From contig NZ_LMVP01000035.1 in NCBI RefSeq assembly GCF_002287235.1, positions 1 to 49,618 of the forward strand: 49,618 bases of DNA, given 5' to 3'. Positions 32,969-43,748 of this stretch are shown here, piece after piece. The translations under genes and the position numbers were made by a program. Source of the DNA: Methanosarcina spelaei. GTDB lineage: Archaea; Halobacteriota; Methanosarcinia; Methanosarcinales; Methanosarcinaceae. How positions within the stretch are numbered: the stretch's first letter is position 1; every line of letters begins with the position of its first letter. The notes beneath the pieces were generated by a model. That model was given only the letters and a program-made list of their open reading frames with translations, had not been told where the DNA came from and ran no database searches.

Positions 32969-34873
32969 TCATCCTTTGAACTTGAGTTTACAAGCCGGTA
33001 GCATGTTAAAAGGTTGAGTAATCTCACTGCCGAAATTTTTAGTAGAACCCTGCTTTGGCACCTCCATTTCGACGTAATTATAGAATGTTTGCTTGTGTGG
33101 CCAAATACCGGATGAAGGCCTGTGGAAAGATCTGTTGGGTCTGGCTTCCTTAAACCGCATACCATAAAACTTCAAATAAAAATCATCTGCTTCCTTTCTC
33201 AGGTCAACTCCAAGTTTTCCTGGATGCAGTTTGTCTGCTATATACAATAGCCCCAATATCCAGCGGGGACTTCCGAAATCCCAGGAAGGTGGAATTTCAT
33301 AGACCTGCTGTTGTGTCACAGCCCTGGCATGTATCCCATATTTTTGACACAGGGTATAGAACTCATCAAGAGGACGAGAAAGGAAACCGGAGACGAAGAT
33401 AACCCCAGGGTCGTGCTCATTGATGAAGGAAGGAGAAACACTTACACCCAGTTTACCTTCCTTTTGAAGCTGCTTATTGATACTAACACCTCCGGAGAAT
33501 GTCACAAGGTTATTTTCCATTCTCCCGGCATTCAGAGCAAAGAGAGGAGATCCCATGCAATAATACACATTATAACTACTTTTTCCTGCTGCAAGGTTCT
33601 GGACAATTTTTAAACGTTTATGAATGAAAGAAACAAGTTCTTCTCCTTTTTCCGACATATTAGCTTTTTCAGCAATAAATTTGATAAACTCCAGATAAGA
33701 GTATGGCTGCCGTATCATGTTATGTATTTGCGTAAGGGTTTTAGGATCTGATACCTTACTCCAGACATCCATTAATTTATCCTCACCCCAGATATCCATT
33801 AGTTTATAATCGTCCAGCACTCCCAAACATGTAAGTACTGCATGAACCATACTGAAATCCTGACTTATAATACTATAACTGTCCATGAAACCTGCTTCAC
33901 TAAAACCTTCATTGGTAGCTCTCCCCTGCACTGGAATGCTGCTACCGCAACTACATTTTTGACTTACCCATGGTTTTACAAGTCTGGAGCCAAAAGGCAT
34001 GTGAAATTCCCGTTCTATTAGGAGACTTCCACATTCAGGACAGTATGTGTTTAATAGTTCCGTGCCTGGAGAATTAAAGAGGTAAACAAAATCCAAATAT
34101 CTGCGCAAGGCAGAACATATTTTTTCCGCTTCTCCTACTGATGGTTCCAGTTCTATCGGAGCATAGCCTAAGGGAAGGAACCTCATGACATGCAATGGAA
34201 TAGTAGAAGAGATGTCAGACACTTTCTCTGCGACCTTTATAACATCATCCTCATTTCCCTTTGAATAAACGACTGAAGTTTCAATATGTACTCCCATGTC
34301 ATAAAGCCTGGAAATATTGCGAAAAACAGGAGCTGATGACTTTGCCCCACAATTTTTGTAACTTCTGCCAGAATAACCTTTGATTCCTACATTCACAAAG
34401 TTCACGAACTGTCCAAATTCTTCTAAAGTCTCGCTCGTGAAATAGCAGTTGGTTGAACAACCTACAAGTAAACTTTTTTCCCGTGCCTGAGCTGCAAGAT
34501 CCCTAAAAAGATAGTAATTAGCAACAGGATCGTTTATTGCTGAAACTACACCCAGACACTCCTGCTTTAAGGCTCTTTTCACTACCTCGGACGGGCTGAG
34601 TGAAGCTTGCTGGGTAGAAGGCCTGCTTGATGCTGGCATCCGTGCCATACAACCGGGACACTGGAAATTACATCCTGTACTGAAAATTTGCAGGAACTTA
34701 CCTGAAGGATGGAAATGAAGTAAAGGAACTGCTTCTATTGAAACCGGATGTGCCCCAAGATATCCCATGCCCGGGTACTGGATTATAGTATTGCCAGCAT
34801 TTACATAAGTACCACATCTGCCCATACCATGCTTATTGATTTCGCATCTGACTTCGCATACATTGCATCGCAT
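32969..34873 (-). CDS. radical SAM protein fused to a FepB/BtuF-like binding-protein domain
   Basis: A 634-residue protein. The N-terminal Cys cluster (C3, C6, C10, C20) and radical SAM motif CNFQCPGC (C68, C72, C75) resemble the PflA-like AmmeMemoRadiSam group. A zinc-ribbon-like segment follows at about 281-325 (CPEC ... CSC). The last ~300 residues resemble a periplasmic siderophore/corrinoid-binding protein: YNVYYCMGSPLFALN, FSGGVSIN, DPGVIFVSG, and the C-terminal WILGLLYIADKLHP ... EADDFYLKFYG. There is no signal peptide, so the binding-like domain is cytoplasmic. It is divergent from vnfH across a region with ModE-like operators. I infer a role in metal or cofactor handling for V-nitrogenase, but the reaction is unknown. 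Confidence 0.7.
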   Translation of the reverse strand: MRCNVCEVRCEINKHGMGRCGTYVNAGNTIIQYPGMGYLGAHPVSIEAVPLLHFHPSGKFLQIFSTGCNFQCPGCMARMPASSRPSTQQASLSPSEVVKRALKQECLGVVSAINDPVANYYLFRDLAAQAREKSLLVGCSTNCYFTSETLEEFGQFVNFVNVGIKGYSGRSYKNCGAKSSAPVFRNISRLYDMGVHIETSVVYSKGNEDDVIKVAEKVSDISSTIPLHVMRFLPLGYAPIELEPSVGEAEKICSALRRYLDFVYLFNSPGTELLNTYCPECGSLLIEREFHMPFGSRLVKPWVSQKCSCGSSIPVQGRATNEGFSEAGFMDSYSIISQDFSMVHAVLTCLGVLDDYKLMDIWGEDKLMDVWSKVSDPKTLTQIHNMIRQPYSYLEFIKFIAEKANMSEKGEELVSFIHKRLKIVQNLAAGKSSYNVYYCMGSPLFALNAGRMENNLVTFSGGVSINKQLQKEGKLGVSVSPSFINEHDPGVIFVSGFLSRPLDEFYTLCQKYGIHARAVTQQQVYEIPPSWDFGSPRWILGLLYIADKLHPGKLGVDLRKEADDFYLKFYGMRFKEARPNRSFHRPSSGIWPHKQTFYNYVEMEVPKQGSTKNFGSEITQPFNMLPACKLKFKG

Positions 34874-35101: not shown

Positions 35102-35126
35102 CGTTATGTATATTCATACATATTGG
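35102..35126. promoter_or_regulatory. degenerate ModE-like operator, copy 1
   Basis: CGTTATG-N10-CATATTGG. The left half matches the perfect copy at 35230; the right half keeps only CATA and the final GG. Confidence 0.45.
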
Positions 35127-35229
35127 CATAATATATTTTTATCAAGATGGTTGTGTACCGAAACTTAACAACTTAGTGTTCTTTCATTTTTCATGTTAAA
35201 ACACTATGTTTCTATGATTTAATGGTTTG

Positions 35230-35257
35230 ACCGTTATGCCTATTTATACATAACGGT
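35230..35257. promoter_or_regulatory. ModE-like operator, perfect palindrome
   Basis: ACCGTTATG-N10-CATAACGGT is a perfect 9+9 bp inverted repeat. CGTTAT and ATAACG are separated by 12 bases, the same half-sites and spacing as the E. coli modA operator bound by the molybdate-responsive repressor ModE. It lies about 260 bp upstream of the predicted vnfH TATA box and 357 bp upstream of the divergent radical SAM start. Confidence 0.7.
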
Positions 35258-35488
35258 TCAGAGTTTTCTATTGTTATACGTGACTTCTCAAACCTAACAA
35301 AATATGGGTATAAGACAGTACTAAACATTCATAGAGATAACCTTATTTTGCCTTTAAATTGAAACTTTTTTTCCATTGGATGAAAAATGAATGGTAAATG
35401 ATATTGTTTTTACAATAATAACCTTTTTAATAATTTATAAACAAGTGTATTTCTCAATCAATGTACTAAATATTCGGGGAATGAATAC

Positions 35489-35498
35489 TTATATATAG
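35489..35498 (+). promoter_or_regulatory. predicted vnfH TATA box
   Basis: TTATATATAG matches an archaeal TATA box. Transcription would start near 35520, giving a leader of about 290 nt to vnfH. The third ModE-like site lies about 20 bases after that start. Confidence 0.5.
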
Positions 35499-35540
35499 TA
35501 TTAGATAGGAAGTAAGCATCTGTATTCCGCCACACAAGAG

Positions 35541-35569
35541 ACCGTTATGTCCAGATAAACATAATGAGT
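35541..35569. promoter_or_regulatory. ModE-like operator, copy 3, near the vnfH start site
   Basis: ACCGTTATG-N10-CATAATGAG: the left half is identical to the perfect palindrome; the right half differs at three of nine positions. Its position just after the predicted transcription start would suit a repressor that blocks RNA polymerase. Confidence 0.55.
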
Positions 35570-35793
35570 GTAAAAATATTATGGAATGTATGAGGTGGAG
35601 TAAACAATACAAGAAAACTGGAGAAAAAGGAGTGATATGCAAAAGAAAACATATTTCATATCAAAATAATAGGTAATGTATGAATTGGGACAGACAACAT
35701 AAGAAATCCAGTAATTTTGCTTAAAAATTCAAAGGGATGTTCAAGATACGAAGTTCAAAGAAGCGAATGGGTTTCTGGGCAAAGTTTGCGTAA

Positions 35794-36639
<846 letters not shown>

Positions 36640-36657: not shown

Positions 36658-36975
36658 ATGAAAATGATCCGTGCCATACTACGTCCTGAATGGACTGAAG
36701 AAGTAACCGATGGCCTTTCAGAAGCCGGTTATTATTCCCTTACAAAAATAAACGTCTTTGGAAGAGGCAAACAAAAAGGTATCACTGTTGGTGATATGCA
36801 TTATGATGAGCTCGCAAAAACAATGATCATGATGGCTGTAGAAGACGAGGCTGTTGACGAGATAATAAAAATAATTTCCGGAAAAGCATACACTGGTAAC
36901 ATGGGAGACGGGAAAATCTTTGTGAACACGATTGAAGATGCATACACAATTAGCTCGGGTGAAAGGGGATTATGA
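36658..36975 (+). CDS. nifI1: nitrogenase PII-like regulator NifI1
   Basis: A 105-residue PII-family protein starting 18 bp after vnfH, with AAAGGAGATATC upstream. It has the PII core (MKMIRAILRPEW, GRGKQKG, MGDGKIFVNTIEDAYTISSGERG). In methanogens NifI1 and NifI2 form a complex that inhibits nitrogenase post-translationally when fixed nitrogen is available, relieved by 2-oxoglutarate. The place between H and D is the standard archaeal arrangement. The T-loop is short, as in NifI1. Confidence 0.93.
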   Translation: MKMIRAILRPEWTEEVTDGLSEAGYYSLTKINVFGRGKQKGITVGDMHYDELAKTMIMMAVEDEAVDEIIKIISGKAYTGNMGDGKIFVNTIEDAYTISSGERGL

Positions 36976-37022: not shown

Positions 37023-37394
37023 ATGAAAGAAATTACTGCGATTGTCAGACCTAACAAAATGTCTGCTACTAAAGACGCATTGGATAAAATTGGCTTTTCT
37101 GCCATGACAGCAATTCCGGTATTAGGGAAAGGCAAGCAAAGAGGCATCTCAGGGGAGCTTAACTTTTACATACAACCAAGACTGCTTGCAAAAAGATACA
37201 GTACAGGCATGAAGTACATACCCAAAAGACTTCTGAGTGTAATTGTAAATGATGAAGATGTGGATCTGGTAGTTAAAACCATTATCTCAGTTAATCAGAC
37301 TGCTCAGATTGGTGATGGAAAGATTTTTGTTGAGTCCATTGACGAGGTTATTCGGATAAGGACTGGCGAAAAAGGAGAACTAGCTTTAAAATAA
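37023..37394 (+). CDS. nifI2: nitrogenase PII-like regulator NifI2
   Basis: A 123-residue PII-family partner of NifI1. It shares the core (MKEITAIVRPNK, GKGKQRG, IGDGKIFVESIDEVIRIRTGEKG) and carries the longer T-loop with basic and aromatic residues (GELNFYIQPRLLAKRYSTGMKYIPKR split over about 42-67) by which NifI2 is distinguished. It should act with NifI1 in ammonia switch-off. The gene starts 47 bp after nifI1 and is followed by vnfD 19 bp later. Confidence 0.93.
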   Translation: MKEITAIVRPNKMSATKDALDKIGFSAMTAIPVLGKGKQRGISGELNFYIQPRLLAKRYSTGMKYIPKRLLSVIVNDEDVDLVVKTIISVNQTAQIGDGKIFVESIDEVIRIRTGEKGELALK

Positions 37395-37413: not shown

Positions 37414-39191
<1,778 letters not shown>

Positions 39192-39195
39192 ATAA

Positions 39196-40596
<1,401 letters not shown>

Positions 40597-40759: not shown

Positions 40760-40869
40760 TCGGAGCCGTAACTGCCTGAGTATCCTGTTTGATAGCATAA
40801 AGCTGCAGCTAAACGCAATCAAGAAGTTTTTGTTTTTTGATTGTAACCGGTTTCAATAATGAGGGTAAT

Positions 40870-42399
40870 ATGGTCGGCATTGCTAACGAAAGTGTAGTGT
40901 TTTTTGGACATTTAAGCGAGCTTTATCAATTAGCGAAAGAAGGAAAAATTGACACAAAACTACAGGGCAGCCATACCCGTCCCTGTAAATTCTGGACGGC
41001 TATGAAAATCTTAAGCGGCATTAAAAATACTGTTGTTATTGCTCATGGTCCAAGTGGCTGCGCGATTGGAGTAAAACAGGCTTATAAGCTAACAAATTGC
41101 AGAAATAGCGGTTCCCCATACGAATCCATTATTACTACAAATATTGATGAAAAAGCCATTGTATACGGTGGCGAAAAGGAACTGAAGGGCGCCATACTCG
41201 AGGTAGATAACAAATATAAGCCTGACGTTATTTTCGTAGCAACAAGCTGTGCCACCGGAATAATTGGGGATTATGTAGATGCCATAGTGAACAAAGTTAA
41301 GCCCAAAATTAACGCCGAAATCATGGCCATTCATTGCGAAGGTTTTGCGGGAGAGTACAGGAGTGGGTTTGACCTGGTCTTCAGGCAGATTGTTCAGCTT
41401 ATGGATAAGCCTGATCCAGAGAGCAGATCAAAGCTTGCAAAATCCGTTAATATCGTAGGGGGCAAAATGGGTCCAGAAAGGACGGAGATTGAAACTGATG
41501 TTAAAGAATTGAGGCGGTTAATAGAAAGCATGGGTGCAAGTGTGAATGCGGTAATAGCAGGCAATTGTTCACTGGAAAAAATAAAACAGGCTCCCAGTGT
41601 AGCGGTAAATTGTACCCTATGCCTTGTTATGGGCTATGCGATAGGAAGAGAGATGCTTGACCGGTTTGACACTCCTTTAAACTCTACGATTCTGCCGTGT
41701 GGTATAAGCGCAACCGAGAAGTGGCTGAGAGGAGCAGCCAGGCATTTACATCTCGAAACTGAGGCTGAAGAGCTGATCAAAAGAGAATATGAAGCCATAA
41801 GCGTCGAATTTGAAGAGGCGAAAAAATGCCTATCAGGAAAGCTGGCAATTGTTGAAGGGCATGATGCGATAAAGTCTCTGTCAATCGCTCACATGCTTGA
41901 ACGTGATTTTGGTATGAGGGTGGTTATATATAATTTTCATCCCTGGAGCACGCAGGCAAGAGAAACAAGTATTGATTACCTCTTAGAGACCGGGATTGAT
42001 CCTGAAATACTGATCACAAAGGGTACTCTTGCCTTTGGAAAATATGAGGCAATGGTTCAGACTGAAAATGAGCTTATGGAATATTTGGGAGATCTGAATC
42101 CTGAGACAACCGTGTATTTTGGGTCATCAATGAGTTTTCCGAATATTCCTGTAGTTGATTTAAATTCCATATTAAACCGCCCCAGATTTGGTTATAGGGG
42201 AGCTTTAAAGGTAGCTAAATGCGTTTGCACTGCTCTTGAGTATTCTTTCAGACCTCGCAGCTGGGTAATGAAAAAAATGGTGTTCTCTGAAAACTCAGGG
42301 TTGTGTTCAGCCCAGTCCCTCACACCGAAGCTGGCTCAGGATTTGCCGGATTGCACAGTTTATGCAGGAAAGGAGAGAGACAAATGTATGATGAGTTGA
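40870..42399 (+). CDS. vnfE: nitrogenase cofactor scaffold protein, E subunit (vanadium system)
   Basis: About 509 residues, a NifE homologue that with N forms the scaffold on which the Fe-V cofactor is built before transfer to VnfDK. Motifs: RPCKFWTAMKIL, IAHGPSGCAIGV, ATSCATGIIGDYVDAIV and HCEGFAGEYRSGFD. The ATG at 40870 is chosen because GAGGG sits five bases upstream; a TTG at 40837 would add 11 residues. The stop overlaps vnfN by 16 bases. The 0.27-kb spacer with repeats upstream could hold an internal promoter or RNA-processing site. Confidence 0.9.
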   Translation: MVGIANESVVFFGHLSELYQLAKEGKIDTKLQGSHTRPCKFWTAMKILSGIKNTVVIAHGPSGCAIGVKQAYKLTNCRNSGSPYESIITTNIDEKAIVYGGEKELKGAILEVDNKYKPDVIFVATSCATGIIGDYVDAIVNKVKPKINAEIMAIHCEGFAGEYRSGFDLVFRQIVQLMDKPDPESRSKLAKSVNIVGGKMGPERTEIETDVKELRRLIESMGASVNAVIAGNCSLEKIKQAPSVAVNCTLCLVMGYAIGREMLDRFDTPLNSTILPCGISATEKWLRGAARHLHLETEAEELIKREYEAISVEFEEAKKCLSGKLAIVEGHDAIKSLSIAHMLERDFGMRVVIYNFHPWSTQARETSIDYLLETGIDPEILITKGTLAFGKYEAMVQTENELMEYLGDLNPETTVYFGSSMSFPNIPVVDLNSILNRPRFGYRGALKVAKCVCTALEYSFRPRSWVMKKMVFSENSGLCSAQSLTPKLAQDLPDCTVYAGKERDKCMMS

Positions 42400-43748
42400 G
42401 ATTCGATAACTGCAACCATAGCAGGGACCCTATGGTCGGATGTGCTCTTGAAGGTGCCACCGGAGTACTGGCAGGAATCAAAGACATTAGTATTGTCATA
42501 CATTCCCCTCAAGGCTGTTCTTCAACGGTTTCGGCAGCCTATGACATCCATGAAATCGATTTTACGAAAAGAAAAGTTGCATGCACCAGGCTTTTTGAAA
42601 CAGACGTGATAATGGGAGCTTCAAGCAAGCTGAAAAACTTAATCAAAGAAGCTGATTCGAAATTTAAAACCAGGGTGATATTCGTAGTTGGTACATGTGC
42701 AGCTGATATCATTGGTGAGGATATTGAGGGCTTATGCCGAAATATCCAGCCGCAAACTGATGCAAAGCTTATTCCCTTGATGGCAGGAGGGTTTCGAGGA
42801 AACCTCTATGATGGTATTGAACTGGGACTGAATGCATTGCTTCCGTTTATAAAAAAGCAGAAGGAAAAAATTCCAAACACTGTGAACTTAATAGCGCCTC
42901 AAGCAAACCTGAACCCTACATGGTGGGCGGATTTGAAATGGATACGTGAAACCCTTGAAAAAATAGGAATTAAAGTTCAGGCTGTGCTTCCTCACGATAC
43001 GTCTCTGGAAGAACTAAATAATGCCGGGCTAGCATCGGCAAATATACTTCTCAGTCACGATGCTGGGTATCAATTTGGGTTAAAAATGCAGGAAGTACAT
43101 AATATACCGCTTATACTATCGGACATTCCACTCCCAATAGGACTTAAAAATACTGCAAGATGGCTTCGTGCAATAGGAAAATACTTTGGCGTCGAAGAAA
43201 AAGTTGAGGCAATGATAAAAGACGGGGAAGCTATGGCCATTGATGTTCTGAGACGCAGAGGGTTGATGATGATCCCCAGGTACCGCAACTGCAGAGTAGC
43301 TGTTTCGGCGGATGCGACCATGGGAATAGGGCTGACCAGAATGTTATTTGAAGAACTGGAAATGATTCCGGATCTGTTGCTGTTCAGATCTTCCGTGTCT
43401 GATTCTCAGTTGCTGTTGGAAAATGAGCTTAACAATATGGGAATTTCCCCGAAGGTTGTTTTTTCGGCTGACGGATATCAGATAAAAAAATCTTTGATGG
43501 AAAGCTGTATAGATGCTGTATTCTGTTCTTCGTGGGAGTATTATCTGGCTGAAGAACTGGGGATAAAGTTTGCGTTTGATGTTTTCAACCCTACAAACCG
43601 GCAGAACTACCTGAATAGGGCATATTTCGGATACGAAGGCATGCTGAACTTTTTAGAAAATGTTGCAAATGACTGGGAACGGGCTCTTCGTTCAAAGCAG
43701 ATTAACTGGGAAGAGTATTCGGAACTGACTCAAAAATGGAGCTTATAA
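42384..43748 (+). CDS. vnfN: nitrogenase cofactor scaffold protein, N subunit (vanadium system)
   Basis: About 454 residues, a NifN homologue pairing with VnfE. Motifs: CNHSRDPMVGCALEGATGVL, IHSPQGCSSTVSAAYD, VGTCAADIIGEDIEG, and AYFGYEGMLNF near the end. Open frame extends back to 42303, but ATG 42384 is preceded by a strong AGGAAAGGAGAG and gives the usual N-terminus. It overlaps vnfE by 16 bases, so the two are translationally coupled. Confidence 0.92.
   Translation: MYDELRFDNCNHSRDPMVGCALEGATGVLAGIKDISIVIHSPQGCSSTVSAAYDIHEIDFTKRKVACTRLFETDVIMGASSKLKNLIKEADSKFKTRVIFVVGTCAADIIGEDIEGLCRNIQPQTDAKLIPLMAGGFRGNLYDGIELGLNALLPFIKKQKEKIPNTVNLIAPQANLNPTWWADLKWIRETLEKIGIKVQAVLPHDTSLEELNNAGLASANILLSHDAGYQFGLKMQEVHNIPLILSDIPLPIGLKNTARWLRAIGKYFGVEEKVEAMIKDGEAMAIDVLRRRGLMMIPRYRNCRVAVSADATMGIGLTRMLFEELEMIPDLLLFRSSVSDSQLLLENELNNMGISPKVVFSADGYQIKKSLMESCIDAVFCSSWEYYLAEELGIKFAFDVFNPTNRQNYLNRAYFGYEGMLNFLENVANDWERALRSKQINWEEYSELTQKWSL

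Follow-up and report, generated by a model that had tools for sequence, protein, structure and literature searches.

Putative ModE operators at the vanadium-nitrogenase promoter of Methanosarcina spelaei and the molybdenum-related genes that carry the same box

Introduction

How could a methanogen that encodes a vanadium nitrogenase keep this enzyme off while molybdenum is available? The question is raised by a 49.6 kb stretch of Methanosarcina spelaei DNA (the window, i.e., the whole stretch analysed here), in which vnfH and a radical-SAM gene are divergently oriented and three ModE-like palindromes lie between them. In E. coli, the ModE consensus ATCGNTATATA-N6-TATATANCGAT places 12 bases between CGNTAT and ATANCG (PMC545781). 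In Azotobacter vinelandii, ModE1 and ModE2 repress two activator genes, vnfA1 and, only in part, anfA (PMC9542535), and for Methanosarcina acetivorans the title of a 2025 report by Chanderban and Lessner (doi 10.1111/mmi.15377, cited in PMC13224831) announces ModE control of alternative nitrogenase expression. A sequence-only reading of the window had proposed that all three palindromes are operators upstream of vnfH and that they give direct support for molybdate repression of an archaeal V-nitrogenase. Here, we follow the palindromes through the window, the genome, the genus and the order.

Results

Three conserved boxes between vnfH and a radical-SAM gene

The genes on either side of the palindromes are as follows:

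32969..34873, minus strand: divergent radical-SAM gene; the first 306 residues of its product are AmmeMemoRadiSam-like
35812..36639, plus strand: vnfH, nitrogenase iron protein (TIGR01287, 459 bits, over the cut-off)
36658..36975, plus strand: nifI1-type PII regulator (PF00543, E 3.1e-24)
37023..37394, plus strand: nifI2-type PII regulator (PF00543, E 3.6e-28)
37414..38856, plus strand: vnfD, V-nitrogenase alpha chain (TIGR01860, 1007.8 bits, cut-off 823.1)
38853..39191, plus strand: vnfG, V-nitrogenase delta chain (TIGR02930, over the cut-off)
39211..40596, plus strand: vnfK, V-nitrogenase beta chain (TIGR02932, over the cut-off)

The nitrogenase is truly V-type, with vnfD, vnfG and vnfK all exceeding their equivalog cut-offs. 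Two NifE/NifN-like scaffold genes after vnfK (40837-43748) score far under the NifE and NifN cut-offs and may represent a divergent VnfEN pair. Also located after the vnf operon is a gene for a FecCD-type periplasmic binding protein (PF01497; 44312-45478), which perhaps serves uptake of a metal that the V-nitrogenase needs. On the other side, the radical-SAM protein next to vnfH is about 590-640 residues long, and its C-terminal half has no Pfam match. A paralogue (L028:3900-5672, minus strand) belongs to an operon with a putative ModE box, together with genes for a periplasmic binding protein, a methyltransferase, a FecCD permease and an ABC ATPase; this radical-SAM/uptake gene set is possibly a metal-chelator pathway.

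The intergenic region contains three putative ModE boxes:

35102..35125, no strand: copy 1 (CGTTATGTATATTCATACATATTG), which probably serves the leftward radical-SAM gene as operator
35230..35257, no strand: copy 2, perfect palindrome ACCGTTATG-N10-CATAACGGT, distal site
35543..35566, no strand: copy 3 (CGTTATGTCCAGATAAACATAATG), predicted vnfH operator, about +22 to +48 from the inferred start

Copy 2 is present exactly as had been described, with ACCGTTATG at 35230-35238, CATAACGGT at 35249-35257 and ten bases between the arms. Both degraded copies were found as well, the earlier start of 35541 for copy 3 counting two additional outer bases (AC). All three have the inverted repeat of a ModE operator (CG.TAT-N12-ATA.CG), with 0 mismatches to CGTTAT-N12-ATAACG at 35232-35255, 1 at 35543-35566 and 2 at 35102-35125. 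The 12-base spacing between CGNTAT and ATANCG equals that of the E. coli consensus, as had been stated. The inner bases differ, being GTT(T/C)...(A/G)AAC here and ATA...TAT in E. coli.

In an alignment of the window with four related vnf loci, copies 1-3 are all retained at corresponding positions, and the position of copy 3 is kept in all six vnf loci. Counted over the window and its four close relatives, 34 of the 42 columns that make up the 7-base arms of copies 1-3 show identity, versus 469 of 909 in the intergenic region (P about 6e-5, a guide value only, given that the calculation ignores the relatedness of the species). Around the conserved arms of these five loci, the surrounding sequence drifts. 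An Rfam search of the intergenic region returned no RNA element.

The box marks molybdenum-related genes

Within the window, the loose pattern with up to three mismatches was found 25 times versus 17.1 expected. Since a count so mildly above chance proves little by itself, the motif was tested genome-wide. In a genome of 5.09 Mb, about 0.02 occurrences of the exact core CGTTATG-N10-CATAACG are expected; there are four, and four more places have one mismatch. By contrast, exactly two mismatches were counted at 14 places versus 15.5 expected, which is no enrichment. Copy 1 is therefore significant only by its position and its conservation in relatives, and the loose pattern is at background (115 places versus 145 in the control). 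In the genus (31 genomes), there are 40 exact cores on one strand versus 0 in the reversed control; when up to two mismatches were allowed, a 16-base version gave 178 matches versus 17 (summed per-genome columns). Of the 186 genomes available for the order, 56 hold the exact 16-base version, with 0 control matches. It is the strong copies, their clustering and their recurrence that make the case for the motif.

All eight places in the genome with at most one mismatch flank Mo- or metal-uptake-related genes:

vnfH: two boxes
modA, with modB next after it: one box
intergenic region from which a modB/modC-like pair runs leftward and an fmdE homologue rightward: one box
fmd operon, with recognisable FmdE, A, C and B homologues and a molybdopterin dinucleotide-binding protein: one box
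modD-like phosphoribosyltransferase gene: one box
two FecCD-type uptake clusters: one box each

Far from being frequent and unconnected with molybdenum, the motif is rare and associated with Mo genes; modA, modBC/fmdE, fmd and the modD-like gene provide the link to molybdate transport and Mo enzymes that is typical of a ModE operator. The two-mismatch sites include boxes before an anfH-like gene and before the anf nifI1-nifI2-DGK operon of this genome, which encodes a true Fe-nitrogenase. A scan of the Mo-nitrogenase operon of the same genome found no boxes. Many genomes of the genus have the putative box of the fmd operon, CGTTATGTTTATTTAAACATAACG (G000:C527:42449-42472; L020:6450-6473), in identical or reverse-complement form down to its central bases.

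The strongest single result comes from ten loci across the order, all outside the genus, that were chosen by the motif only, because genes played no part in the choice: eight adjoin modA and one adjoins modD. We also looked for the E. coli-type box at 79 vnfD loci of other phyla and of further archaea (Methanothrix, Archaeoglobus). The matches were few and scattered, giving no sign of this vnf arrangement beyond the genus.

A ModE homologue accompanies the boxes

The genome does contain a ModE homologue, located on another contig (G000:C527:19453-20094). Positions 2-83 match TIGR00637 (E 2.3e-17), corresponding to the ModE-type N-terminal winged-helix DNA-binding domain, and a C-terminal Mop/TOBE domain is recognised by PF03459 (E 4e-16), one domain where E. 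coli ModE has two. The TIGR00637 score of 65 bits is below the curated cut-off of 98.5 bits, and we therefore call the protein a single-Mop ModE homologue and not an E. coli-type equivalog. The match to the LysR-type helix-turn-helix (HTH_1) is weak. The SARNQL, TSVV and VIKST motifs of the Mop domain are invariant in the genus alignment. Among proteins of solved structure, the sequence matches E. coli ModE, ModG, MopII and a ModE-like protein of Agrobacterium, and 2ijl, 1b9m and 1o7l are PDB entries matching the DNA-binding domain. The AlphaFold model has a mean pLDDT of 56, being of low confidence outside the DNA-binding domain and better within it; its top eight Foldseek matches are nevertheless E. 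coli ModE (1o7l, 1b9m).

ModE is conserved through the genus, and only two genomes, G017 and G018 (assemblies 73% and 92% complete), show a Mop-type match without the DNA-binding part. The same two are the only genomes of the genus without any boxes, and the anf promoter of G018 has the second element described below and no ModE box. With both assemblies incomplete, this joint lack of ModE and boxes is suggestive only.

Promoter assignment of the three copies and a second conserved element

Three further elements were recognised around the boxes:

35127..35143, minus strand: conserved TATA-like box of the leftward promoter (GATAAAAATATATTATG on the minus strand), from the five-locus alignment
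35489..35497, plus strand: TATA box of the vnfH promoter (TTATATATA), from the sequence and conserved in the alignment
35505..35528, plus strand: second conserved element ATAGGAAGTAAGCATCTGTATTCC (GGAA-N13-TTCC), spanning the inferred start, with half-sites resembling those of NrpR

The TATA box at 35489-35497 would put the vnfH start at around 35518, some 25 bases ahead of copy 3, in keeping with the earlier placement of this copy just past the start. Copy 3 alone is predicted to be placed as a classical vnfH operator, able to block transcription. The distance from copy 1 to the radical-SAM start is 227-250 bp in six loci (including G001); this near-fixed distance, together with the adjacent conserved leftward TATA-like box, makes copy 1 a probable radical-SAM operator, more likely to serve the divergent gene than vnfH. 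For copy 2, located 273 bp upstream of the 35505 element and 311 bp from copy 3, we found no evident promoter of its own, and its role would be in cooperative or looping repression. The assignment of three operators to vnfH thus stands for copy 3, has probably to be given up for copy 1, and leaves copy 2 as a distal site.

Relatives of the second element overlap the start site at every alternative-nitrogenase promoter examined and at two uptake operons (best form ATAGGAAATAGGTTACTGTNTTCC; further sites at G000:C90:26285, C90:33548, C527:40430 and C539:17559). In ModE-bearing genomes, a box begins 38 or 39 bases after the first base of the element at 14 of 14 alternative-nitrogenase promoters, six of vnfH and eight of anf or second-nifH genes, which are related and hence not mutually independent; in the window, copy 3 is at +38 from the 35505 element. 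At the uptake operons, which where annotated hold a periplasmic binding protein, a methyltransferase, a radical-SAM enzyme and a FecCD permease, the distance from element to box is 134-188. Five vnfH genes have upstream boxes at -272 to -277 and at -398 to -403, two anfH-like genes have them at -249, and others occur elsewhere. In G001, boxes occur at the same promoter position, and a radical-SAM homologue adjoins a second nifH.

We considered GGAA-N13-TTCC as an NrpR nitrogen operator and rejected this assignment: its spacing differs from the N6 reported for NrpR (PMC2723118), and variants of it are also found before genes for an S-layer protein and a corrinoid protein. The long vnfH leader contains an imperfect direct repeat, AATGTATGAGGTGGAGTAAACAATACAAGAAA / AATGTATGAATTGGGACAGACAACATAAGAAA, within 35580-35710.

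Tentatively, and with somewhat more doubt than conviction, we propose that the alternative-nitrogenase promoters of the genus share a composite module of a TATA box, GGAA-N13-TTCC over the start and a ModE box 38-39 bases on. Further ModE boxes, often present at 100-440 bp upstream, could act by looping, and both signals would also mark the FecCD-type uptake operons with radical-SAM and methyltransferase genes. If true, this would be an archaeal AND-gate for molybdenum and a second signal that links the backup nitrogenases to a possible metal-scavenging pathway.

Discussion

We consider it very probable that the three palindromes are operators of the ModE encoded in this genome and mediate molybdate-dependent repression. 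In the proposed mechanism, dimers of ModE, each subunit with a winged helix and one Mop domain, would bind the boxes when molybdate is present. Occupation of copy 3 would block transcription of vnfH-nifI1-nifI2-vnfDGK, occupation of copy 1 would repress the divergent radical-SAM gene, and copy 2 would probably strengthen repression. When molybdate is absent, ModE would release the boxes and V-nitrogenase could be made, provided that a second input, perhaps nitrogen status acting via the GGAA-N13-TTCC element, is received as well. ModE binding, its dependence on molybdate, the direction of regulation and the part played by copy 2 are what we infer from the boxes and the regulator gene; the sequence supports molybdate repression, as had been claimed, but does not demonstrate it.

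That the boxes are chance palindromes or copies of a dispersed repeat is hardly credible. The loose pattern is indeed at genome background, but the exact copies are far over chance and concentrated at Mo-related promoters, the control counts already contradict such an origin, and the arms are conserved although the flanking sequence drifts. It is slightly easier to imagine, and still very unlikely, that a different metal or nitrogen regulator binds the palindrome, as several boxes precede FecCD-type uptake operons for which the metal is unassigned. Against this, of the ten motif-chosen loci outside the genus, nine have the exact box next to modA or modD, half-site and spacing equal those of the E. 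coli ModE consensus, and boxes are missing exactly where ModE is missing.

An alternative that deserves more weight, although we think it improbable, accepts ModE as the binding protein and differs in the outcome: ModE would partly activate, or copies 1 and 2 would regulate only the radical-SAM gene and not vnfH. The placement of copy 1 relative to the radical-SAM start and its TATA-like box fits the latter version. The former draws on the box at the fmd operon, a Mo-dependent enzyme expected to be on in the presence of Mo, and on the fact that E. coli ModE activates some of its targets. However, most regulon promoters with a recognisable TATA box have the ModE box just downstream of it, in a repressor position, and upstream boxes are also seen at anfH-like promoters next to which the stretch read shows no radical-SAM gene. 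We thus retain repression by ModE, with copy 3 as the predicted vnfH operator, as the preferred reading.

Compared with known systems, the Methanosarcina arrangement shares with E. coli ModE and the modA operator the CG.TAT half-sites, the 12-base spacing, molybdate-transport targets and a repressor with HTH and Mop domains, and differs, besides the inner bases and the single Mop domain of the regulator, in that its targets include vnf, anf and fmd. The M. acetivorans system, as far as the title of the report tells, has the same regulator family and target genes in the same genus; the present work concerns another species, and the box map, the regulon and the fixed promoter spacing come from sequence. 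As in A. vinelandii, molybdate-ModE is proposed to keep the alternative nitrogenases off, with the difference that the boxes are located directly at structural-gene promoters. Our findings therefore add one more species to those with this known kind of regulation, and contribute a map of regulon and sites and the proposed composite promoter.

The arrangement explains from sequence how a methanogen could hold both of its alternative nitrogenases, the V- and the Fe-type, off as long as molybdenum can be had. ModE would here act directly at the structural genes, and not via activators as in Azotobacter. In addition, the analysis yields a box consensus and a list of targets (vnf, anf, mod, fmd, the modD-like gene and the uptake operons) for experiments in genetically tractable Methanosarcina.
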